Shown: one piece after another, positions 53,006-55,074 of the stretch
How the letters are laid out: the number at the start of each line of letters is the position of its first letter
Numbering within the stretch: position 1 is the stretch's first letter
IMG/VR virus record: IMGVR_UViG_3300010316_000005
Location: 111,737-175,736 of that record
DNA length: 64,000 bases
Direction: 5' to 3' (one strand)
From: a virus
Notes under the pieces: model-generated
What the model saw: only the letters and a program-made list of their open reading frames with translations
What the model was told of the DNA's origin: nothing
The model's database searches: none
Translations under genes and position numbers: made by a program

Positions 53006-53451
53006 ATGAGATCTCAAATAATAGAAATTATAAAAACAACTAATCCAAGAGCGACTAGTAGAATTATAAAAAATAACAAAGATTTAAAAAATTGGGTAGA
53101 ACAAAATTCTTTGCCCGACAGTAATTTTTCCAAAAGAATATACAACAGTTTAAATCCGAACAGAGATATTTGTGAATATAACAATATAAAAAAGTTTAAA
53201 TCTCTCACGCACGGATATTCATTTTGTAATAAAGTAAATAAATGTTTATGTGCAAAAGAAAGTGTTGCTCGGTCAGTTTCTAATGCTATACTGATTTTAA
53301 AATTAGAAAGCACCGTTCTAATTTTACTAAAAATAAATTACTTCGCAGGAACGACACTTCTGGCACTACTGAAAAAGAATTAGCACAGTCAATTGGCTGG
53401 CATCAATTGGGAGATTGCGGCAATTCCATTTATTCTATAAAATTTCTTTAA
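53006..53451 (+). pseudogene. Homing-endonuclease-like gene split by a -1 frame change
   Basis: Frame one (53006-53383) encodes a Lys/Asn-rich N-terminus with HGYSFCNKVNKCLC near residues 70-83, a Cys-pair pattern seen in phage endonucleases of this style. After about 53284 the meaningful frame becomes the -1 frame. It encodes KHRSNFTKNKLLRRNDTSG and ELAQSIGWHQLGDCGNSIYSIKFL and stops at 53449-53451. The two parts join at TTTAAAA (53296-53302), a -1 slippery heptamer in the correct phase, just ahead of an 11-bp hairpin. Either the gene is a decayed remnant or it uses programmed frameshifting; decay is the simpler view. Confidence 0.6.
53298..53326 (+). repeat. 11-bp inverted repeat at the frame junction
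   Basis: TAAAATTAGAA (53298-53308), 7-base loop, TTCTAATTTTA (53316-53326): a perfect inverted repeat overlapping the slippery heptamer. It is AT-rich, so the stem is only moderately stable. Confidence 0.8.
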
Positions 53452-53469: not shown

Positions 53470-53497
53470 TTGACATTCTTTTTTAATGTGTTATATT
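53470..53497 (+). promoter_or_regulatory. Sigma70-type promoter for the 188-residue protein
   Basis: TTGACA (53470-53475), 16 bases, TATATT (53492-53497). The predicted start near 53504 gives a leader of about 34 bases with AAGGGA. It suggests early expression, unlike the late genes on either side. Confidence 0.7.
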
Positions 53498-53537: not shown

Positions 53538-54104
53538 ATGAAGATTAATTTACGCAAAGCAAACGCATTACAGAACGTAATTAGAGAAGCACTACAGGAG
53601 TTGGATCTTTCGACTACTGTGAGCATTAACGAATTTGAACAGGCAGCAACTAGAATTGAGCAGGTTCGTGACCAGTTTAACACAAATTTTAAAACGCGGT
53701 CAGATTTAGTTTCTGCATTGTACGAGATTCGTACATCGGTTGCAAAAGCAAATTCGCAGGCAGGCATTAGCGACGCCCTCGCAACGCTAGCTGAAATCGA
53801 CAAGAACATCGCATTCTTGACAAAGTTAGCAAAGAGTGCTGAGCAAGCTGAACTTGCTGTTATTAACGGCAAGCTTGGTAAAATTGCCTCAGCAGACGGT
53901 AAAGACGCGTTCTACATGCGTGAGGACACAGTTTCGACTAGCATCTTTACAAAGCAAGACCTTGACAGCTTTAAGCAGTCGCTTGCTGTTGTAAAGAAGA
54001 ACAAGCAAAATTTACAGGACCAACTTCTTGAGTTGAATGTAACCACTAAGATTTTAATTGCTGACTCGACTGTTAAAGTTCTTGAAGACCAAGGTCTTGT
54101 CTAA
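53538..54104 (+). CDS. Helical hypothetical protein with its own early-type promoter
   Basis: The 188-residue protein is mainly alpha-helical (LRKANALQNVIREALQEL, then FEQAATRIEQVRDQFN). A short central loop (GKDAFYMREDTVSTS, near 135) and a C-terminal helix pair follow. There is no signal peptide, membrane segment or enzyme motif. It sits between two terminators with a sigma70-type promoter, so it is an independent, probably early unit inserted between capsid and fibre genes. The 3' end reads straight into a structured gene-free block with no terminator for 400 bases. I do not recognise the function. Confidence 0.8.
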   Translation: MKINLRKANALQNVIREALQELDLSTTVSINEFEQAATRIEQVRDQFNTNFKTRSDLVSALYEIRTSVAKANSQAGISDALATLAEIDKNIAFLTKLAKSAEQAELAVINGKLGKIASADGKDAFYMREDTVSTSIFTKQDLDSFKQSLAVVKKNKQNLQDQLLELNVTTKILIADSTVKVLEDQGLV

Positions 54105-54112
54105 GGAGTTTA

Positions 54113-54400
54113 CTACCTTTGTATATCATACATAGTTAAAAAGGTAGCTAGCAGGAATTCGCCGGACAAATGTCCAACGAGCTAAGAGTTATAAGGCAGC
54201 ATAACAGACTGCTACGAGTTTGGTAGTTAGGCTCCGCCGAAAGGCCTCGGGTAAACTACCTAGGAAGAAGGAAGAAAAAGAACAAGCACCTAGTATGAGG
54301 ATCATACGATTTAAAAAAGGCTTTTTATGCCCTAGCGAGTCGTGCTCCAGTCCTTTATTATACCGCAAGGTTTGCATATTGCTGACTGGATATAGGACCT
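54113..54400 (+). ncRNA. Candidate structured RNA B
   Basis: Perfect or near-perfect helices follow one another: CTACCTTT 54113-54120 with AAAGGTAG 54140-54147; GGACA 54164-54168 with TGTCC 54171-54175; GCAG 54196-54199 with CTGC 54209-54212; GGTAGTT 54222-54228 with AACTACC 54254-54260, enclosing GCC-GAAA-GGC; AGCAC 54285-54289 with GTGCT 54342-54346, enclosing GTATGA/TCATAC (54293-54298/54302-54307); TCCAGTC 54346-54352 with GACTGGA 54384-54390, enclosing ACC-GCAA-GGT. Two GNRA tetraloops suggest tertiary contacts. It begins 8 bases after the 188-residue gene stop and would be transcribed with it, ending at the terminator at 54531. Confidence 0.6.
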
Positions 54401-54507
54401 CAATGCTTTTTGTTTTTTGTTAATTGCTCTGGTGCGGACGGAATGTCGGCCTATTGTAAATTGATTTTGCTTGCTACTTACTTTCTTCTTTCTACTTTAA
54501 TAAAAAC
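54401..54507 (+). other. Gene-free T-rich linker between RNA B and the terminator
   Basis: About 107 bases with runs of T (around 54407-54420 and 54480-54500). I see no gene, strong hairpin or promoter in it. The first T-run directly follows the last helices of RNA B and could itself terminate some transcripts. Confidence 0.5.
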
Positions 54508-54531
54508 AAAGCTCGCTTCGGCGGGCTTTTT
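54508..54531 (+). terminator. Rho-independent terminator with UUCG loop
   Basis: AAAGCTCGC (54508-54516), loop TTCG, GCGGGCTTT (54521-54529), then T to 54531. There are nine pairs with one G-U. It ends the transcript of the 188-residue gene plus RNA B. Confidence 0.92.
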
Positions 54532-54549
54532 CTATGTTTATGACAAAGA

Positions 54550-54557
54550 GATAAATA
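54550..54557 (+). promoter_or_regulatory. T4-type late promoter (GATAAATA) for the fibre operon
   Basis: GATAAATA followed by C lies 19 bases after the terminator and 93 bases before ATG 54643. It is the only late octamer in the gap and is well placed to start the rightward fibre operon. Confidence 0.6.
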
Positions 54558-54642
54558 CTGTTGTCGTAAATCGTGCCGCTATACTAGTGGACTTATGCGG
54601 AATTGACCCACCGCGTAGACCTAGAACGTCAAGGAGAAAACA

Positions 54643-55074
54643 ATGGGACGTCCAATAAATGATAGATATTTAGGTGTAACTGCTGATGGCGGCAACCTAT
54701 CTAATGAAGAAAGACTAACAGCAATTGTAAAAGTAGGAGCGAACTCAGTTTCTGAAACTGGCATCGTACTTTCGCAGAGAGCTGAAACTAAGTTTAAGGT
54801 AAACGATACTGCTGACGGTACTGCGGTAAACGTAGACGGCACACAGCGAGACGGTACTGCTGGTACTGGCAACGTAGGCTTTTGTGTACTTGTAGACAAA
54901 GACGTGCCACTAGCAGGCGAAATGGTTGTTAGAGGTTATGTTGCAGGCGGCGGTGACGGAGTTAATATTCGTAAGTTCCACAACAGAACTGTTATTGACT
55001 TTAACAACAATCGTTACACTTGGGAAATACAAGATGATTCAACTGCGAATATCTTAGTACTAACTGCTCTGTAA
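54643..55074 (+). CDS. Small beta-rich virion protein
   Basis: The 143-residue protein starts at ATG 54643 with SD AAGGAGA. It opens MGRPINDRYLGVTADGG and has beta-type repeats with Gly-Thr turns (DGTQRDGTAGTGNVGF). It ends IDFNNNRYTWEIQDDSTANILVLTAL. There is no signal peptide or enzyme motif. As first gene of the fibre operon under a late promoter, it is probably a virion surface or decoration protein; that is inference from context. Confidence 0.78.
   Translation: MGRPINDRYLGVTADGGNLSNEERLTAIVKVGANSVSETGIVLSQRAETKFKVNDTADGTAVNVDGTQRDGTAGTGNVGFCVLVDKDVPLAGEMVVRGYVAGGGDGVNIRKFHNRTVIDFNNNRYTWEIQDDSTANILVLTAL

Follow-up and report, generated by a model that had tools for sequence, protein, structure and literature searches.

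A conserved structured RNA with a seven-base UG register is linked to a small protein gene in phages

The window, a 64-kb stretch of a 175.7 kb virus record, holds an undescribed class of structured phage RNA next to the gene for a 188-residue protein (p188). The structure of this RNA is conserved, a protein gene is linked to it, and the RNA and p188 behave as a unit in being retained, lost, or rearranged. The conserved RNA spans 54217-54497 on the plus strand (~280 nt) and is followed by a terminator with a UUCG loop. Conservation is highest at UG dinucleotides 7 bases apart, arranged 2+4+2, in regions drawn as unpaired. An earlier note on this DNA had proposed a structured RNA here and overlooked both the p188 linkage and the seven-base UG register. 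We consider it likely that the RNA and p188 constitute a two-component, probably early-expressed ribonucleoprotein in which p188 would bind by reading the seven-base register.

The folding energy of the region was -124.9 kcal/mol (z = -3.0), 1 of 100 shuffles folded equally well, and the reverse strand gave z = -3.1. Because this energy is just ~3 standard deviations below shuffles, and equally so on both strands, it is not decisive by itself. Relatives were needed since the energy was modest and Rfam was empty for the RNA. A blastn search of the window region against cultured phages returned no match. Relatives were collected from viral contigs via p188 and the downstream fibre-side gene, which gave two sets of loci, and a CcrColossus query contributed 79 further loci. 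We then used 16 upstream-type relatives, with the window excluded, to generate a covariance model named R1.

R1 matched the window at its full length (39.0 bits, E = 1.4e-9), confirming the structured RNA with a model derived from 16 other phages. In a MAFFT alignment of the 16 relatives that was not fitted to structure, 89.5% of pairs were formed versus 77.9% when shuffled and 26 pairs had two-sided changes versus 16.6, with 0 of 500 shuffles reaching either measure. The R1 structure placed on the MAFFT alignment beat 500 of 500 shuffles on every measure, and it collapsed when pairing partners were slid. Across 79 loci there were 66 R1 matches, the last few of them weak. The resulting 66-sequence alignment, which was fitted to R1 and hence leans towards the model, had 91.7% of pair cells paired versus 66.7% in shuffles, two-sided changes in 47 of 48 pairs, and a covariation score of 0.598 versus 0.200. 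Compensatory changes in homologues, which the earlier note had named among its checks, are thus pervasive. The divergent group L024-L049, to which R1 was poorly sensitive, yielded 42 pairs in its own alignment, 21 with two-sided changes, in a similar layout. An iterated sequence profile united the window, the other groups, and CcrColossus (E 3.3e-11) as one RNA family. R1 did not detect the RNA in Caulobacter, Brevundimonas, Erwinia, and Vibrio phages, where its presence is suggested by the sequence profile (CcrColossus) or by intergenic gaps bearing UUG/UG runs that were read by eye.

No protein frame was conserved across the RNA in the 66-sequence alignment, in agreement with the earlier reading of the window. 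The longest stop-free runs were similar to shuffles on the plus strand and slightly above them on the minus strand, and the two short frames of the window had sporadic matches only. A folding energy just 3 standard deviations under shuffles, and the same on the other strand, would be compatible with chance folding or a missed protein gene. However, the probability of either is negligible, as both are refuted by the covariation, the independent R1 match, and the absence of a conserved frame.

The region comprises the following features, in which pairing percentages refer to alignment cells:

53470-53497 (+): candidate sigma70-type promoter, TTGACA-16-TATATT with TG before the second hexamer, 11/12 matches
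53538-54104 (+): p188, the linked protein, 188 aa, a predicted helical coiled-coil with a short N-terminal strand (MKINLRKA motif)
54105-54216 (+): lineage-specific hairpins that separate the p188 stop codon from the RNA, outside the R1 match and not part of the family core
54217-54497 (+): conserved structured RNA, full-length R1 match (model 1-271)
54222-54260 (+): P1, 5' hairpin, extended here, GAAA cap; R1 helix 1, 84.9% paired, two-sided changes in 7/7 pairs
54262-54287 (+): closing helix P2, 5' strands, purine-rich here, pairing with 54469-54497; R1 helices 2-4
54293-54307 (+): P3 hairpin (GTATGA/TCATAC); R1 helix 5, 92.2% paired, two-sided changes in 7/7 pairs
54347-54389 (+): P5 stem-loop (CCAGTC/GACTGG); R1 helix 8, 97.1% paired, two-sided changes in 5/5 pairs; its loop contains UG units at 54373 and 54380 and an inserted hairpin capped by GCAA
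54403-54427 (+): four UG units at 7-base spacing (54404, 54411, 54418, 54425), unpaired in the consensus, homologous columns at least 95% conserved
54428-54453 (+): variable hairpin breaking the UG array, missing from some relatives in the alignment (e.g., L018, L122, L098)
54454-54468 (+): final pair of UG units (54455, 54462), placed by alignment columns and window coordinates
54469-54497 (+): closing helix P2, 3' strands, pyrimidine-rich here, placed by the R1 match and covariation
54508-54538 (+): intrinsic terminator, 9-bp stem (54508-54529), UUCG loop, U-rich tail

P2 was 81.6-97.8% paired over the 66 sequences. The GNRA caps (GAAA at 54238-54243 and GCAA at 54363-54370) are not conserved, and the stems beneath them vary in length. 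The helices, both GNRA hairpins, the UUCG terminator, and the promoter-like site at 53470 all lie where they had first been placed. The original extent of 54113-54531 holds for the conserved RNA and the terminator, while the hairpins in 54113-54216 are lineage-specific because the conserved RNA starts at ~54217. The hairpins of 54105-54216 were partially shared with L059 only, and in L060 and L064 the p188 stop codon directly precedes the conserved RNA.

With Rfam 15, no family reached the curated gathering score in the 64-kb window, and a permissive search of 53900-54660 left the RNA without a match near any threshold. An rsmX match in the window was at chance level (14.6 bits versus a cut-off of 56). 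Rfam searches of the relatives returned only GOLLD, tRNA, tmRNA, and chance matches, all elsewhere than the RNA. No description of it was found in the open-access literature. Gauged against Rfam 15, Pfam, NCBIfam, PHROGs, and open-access papers, the RNA is new, and Rfam models do not place it with GOLLD, HEARO, or the group I introns.

Three known RNAs invite comparison. GOLLD (RF02032) is likewise a structured phage RNA, with unknown function, that often occurs in tRNA islands, and it co-occurs in stretches L005, L009, L014, L306, and L326. However, it occupies a separate stretch from our RNA in L005, L009, L306, and L326, and its Rfam model has no match to our RNA. GOLLD forms RNA-only cages, whereas the window RNA is tied to one protein gene. 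GOLLD is also much longer, with many examples exceeding 800 nt (PMC12286853). ROOL is a phage and prophage RNA of unknown function, often near tRNA islands, that by its description has no known protein partner (PMC12286853); the RNA reported here has a linked p188, and the window has no Rfam match. OLE, a structured bacterial RNA that forms a ribonucleoprotein together with proteins dedicated to it (PMC12286853, PMC12054373), provides a model for how the RNA and p188 might work together, although no sequence, Rfam, or partner-protein relation was found.

We quantified linkage with a p188-blind scan of viral contigs using a DNA motif from the RNA, which gave a sample biased to one subgroup. Among the matches listed, 57 copies had a 1.5 kb flank on both sides, of which 56 had a same-strand p188 no more than 1.5 kb away; for the remaining one the distance was 1.86 kb. 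The window fits this pattern, with p188 ending at 54104 and adjoining the RNA on the same strand. Conversely, the 40 loci without p188 from the fibre-side gene search had no convincing R1 match, and a UUG heptad run was present in 0 of the 35 capsid-to-fibre gaps among these loci. One p188 gene was found in 13 of 14 large records (that of Vp_R1 is split in two pieces), and each large record in which R1 detects the RNA has a single copy of it. In PA5oct, the gap downstream of the p188 homologue (gp304) is just 72 nt and no RNA was seen beside the gene. The recurrence of the RNA across many large phages, next to this one small protein in nearly all cases, suggests a joint RNA-protein particle. 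Separately, L102, a 6552-base contig of a Myxococcales MAG that is filed as bacterial, has two tandem p188 genes with a UUG heptad run between them, and may be phage or prophage.

A profile of ten RNA stretches placed the RNA 3' of p188 in many loci and 5' in others. It is downstream in the window and the Caulobacter phages, and upstream in L008-L018 and most of L276-L352. The cultured carriers of p188 are Caulobacter phages CcrColossus and CcrPW and several Brevundimonas phages; the gap 3' of p188 is ~285-315 nt in four cultured-phage records and ~285-290 nt in CcrColossus and CcrPW. An RNA that can precede or follow p188 in this way is not a fixed untranslated region. Furthermore, several L001-L009 loci have an extra open reading frame between the RNA and p188, L326 has a promoter-like site between them, and in L305, L326, L333, and L352 the RNA begins directly after the 3' end of a tRNA. 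These arrangements, together with the variable order, speak for the RNA acting as a molecule in its own right. They also make it quite unlikely that the RNA works in cis within the p188 mRNA, whether as a 3' untranslated region or as an autoregulatory or stability element, even though in many relatives, as in the window, it follows p188 closely.

The 66-sequence alignment has columns at or near 100% conservation that are mostly UG units in the 2+4+2 arrangement, and the eight units of the window follow the same arrangement. Runs of at least three UUG at period 7 flanked 73 of the 103 unique p188 genes, whereas after shuffling they occurred in 3 of 515 flanks. No other period from 4 to 14 came near this signal except the harmonic 14 and, weakly, 12. 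CcrColossus has six consecutive UUG units at 7-base spacing. As a family definition, however, the bare repeat (six UUG at 7-base spacing) was rejected as too common, because p188 was present in just 2 among the at least 120 stretches listed in a p188-blind scan. By eye, UUG units 8 bases apart were observed downstream of p188 in Erwinia phage pEa_SNUABM_47 (L363) and Vibrio phage Vp_R1 (L364).

Such an array might alternatively act as a sponge or decoy that captures an RNA-binding protein or nuclease of the host or a rival phage, with p188 merely protecting or delivering the RNA. CsrB and RsmZ, which titrate CsrA, offer an analogy for how short repeated motifs could be presented to a protein, although the repeats of CsrB are GGA motifs and the units here are UG at a fixed 7-base spacing. 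Identical short units repeated in unpaired regions, along with a probable early promoter, fit a titration device. On the other hand, the strict linkage exceeds what a passive protector would need, and we know of no host protein with a 7-base UG register. On balance we regard a sponge as somewhat unlikely, and we favor p188 itself as the probable reader of the register.

The fetched loci contained 197 open reading frames homologous to p188, of which 103 were unique. Window p188 has no assignment in Pfam, NCBIfam, or PHROG, and no known RNA-binding domain. Its AlphaFold model is a helical coiled-coil with two short strands (mean pLDDT 90.7, pTM 0.67). A profile search confirmed homologues in PA5oct, 2.275.O, pEa_SNUABM_47, and Vp_R1. 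Fold comparison of the model retrieved viral homologues, including those of pEa_SNUABM_47, Vp_R1, and two giant viruses of eukaryotes; the BFVD matches were A0A1V0SA40 (Catovirus) and A0A5K0UAD2 (Yasminevirus), at TM of about 0.5-0.66. In the PDB, the only fold match was the moderate one to 3kdq (Foldseek E 0.018, probability 1.00, TM 0.44/0.53), a conserved Corynebacterium diphtheriae protein of unknown function. We take 3kdq, DIP1984, and DUF6847 to be one family. Pfam DUF6847 faintly matched one p188 member (E 0.0035), NCBIfam NF038048 matched no p188 member at E ≤ 0.1, and a PDB sequence search with the p188 profile returned coiled-coil noise only, without retrieving 3kdq. NF038048 also had no match in 189 genomes of one phylum or in control genomes. 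Some plasmid-borne members carry a toxin annotation ('septicolysin'). A Pfam Vps5 match to one p188 member (E 1.2e-5, under the cut-off) was taken as coiled-coil similarity.

A short-repeat RNA next to, and often upstream of, a small protein gene is reminiscent of type III toxin-antitoxin systems such as ToxIN, in which case p188 would be the toxin and the repeat RNA its antitoxin. We judge this very unlikely. No toxin-family match for p188 was found in PADLOC or Pfam: no PADLOC model matched window p188, and other members had single weak PADLOC matches, none of them to a type III toxin. The predicted fold of p188 is a coiled-coil, and 7-base units within a branched RNA are unlike the repeats of that system, which are longer.

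Sigma70-like sites (at least 10/12 matches) within 110 nt 5' of p188 were present for 38 of 91 unique genes, versus 3 of 162 control windows. From such sites we infer that p188 and the RNA are transcribed early from the 53470 promoter. The idea of an early transcript amid late genes draws indirect support from this enrichment and from a TAAATA at 54552. The TAAATA (54552-54557, plus strand) lies within GATAAATACT, between the terminator and a Freshwater-2 leader, and resembles a T4 late promoter; GATAAATA is conserved in L059 and L060.

We propose that the host-type promoter at 53470 would drive an early transcript of p188 and the RNA that stops at the terminator. The RNA would fold into the 5' hairpin P1 and the long closing helix P2, which encloses several hairpins. 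This fold would expose eight UG units 7 bases apart, two in the P5 loop followed by four plus two in an unpaired arc. Coiled-coil p188 would then bind the UG register, with one subunit or half a subunit per unit, to form the ribonucleoprotein. Going further, it is conceivable that p188 forms a regular oligomer along the RNA in which each subunit or half-dimer reads one UG unit, and that this represents a new kind of phage ribonucleoprotein found in several giant-phage groups, perhaps with relatives outside phages. Tentatively, host RNA metabolism or translation might be what the particle acts on in trans: relatives are often located in tRNA islands, although no tRNA was found in the 64-kb window itself. 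In L001-L023, p188 homologues lie within extended arrays of tRNAs, and tmRNA and GOLLD occur close to some of them; the tRNA neighbourhood is missing at several p188 loci. A conserved RNA, a conserved partner, and a near-invariant seven-base register pose a concrete, testable question of RNA recognition. The pair is present in very different phages, including the laboratory-tractable CcrColossus and CcrPW, and bears on the use of noncoding RNA by large phages, as with GOLLD and ROOL.

The window carries a T4-like head module whose major capsid protein is nearest to those of giant phages such as Phosso, Vibrio phage 2.275.O, and PA5oct. Gene order is protease, scaffold, capsid, homing-endonuclease fragment, p188, RNA, terminator, leader RNA, and fibre-side genes. 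A position between capsid and fibre genes would suit a virion role, with p188 associated with the head and the RNA aiding assembly or packaging like the pRNA of phi29, and the record of PA5oct gp304 carries an ESI-MS/MS note. Nevertheless, many relatives are placed within tRNA islands and not next to head genes, the cassette is missing from related phages whose head genes are the same, and the promoters are sigma70-like rather than late-like. We therefore consider a virion role unlikely.

The homing-endonuclease fragment (53006-53383, plus strand) is a degenerate N-terminal piece of a Hef-like enzyme with 37% identity over 87 residues to PA5oct gp328, which occupies the equivalent position after the capsid gene. 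This position resembles a homing hotspot, into which the p188-RNA cassette would also have been inserted. Further downstream, a Freshwater-2 leader RNA (RF02980) at 54575-54645 (plus strand) lies immediately 5' of a 143-aa gene at 54643. Its score in the window falls under the cut-off (45.6 versus 49.9 bits), but it is above the cut-off at the equivalent site in L092 and L087, which links the Freshwater-2 motif to the phage fibre-side gene.
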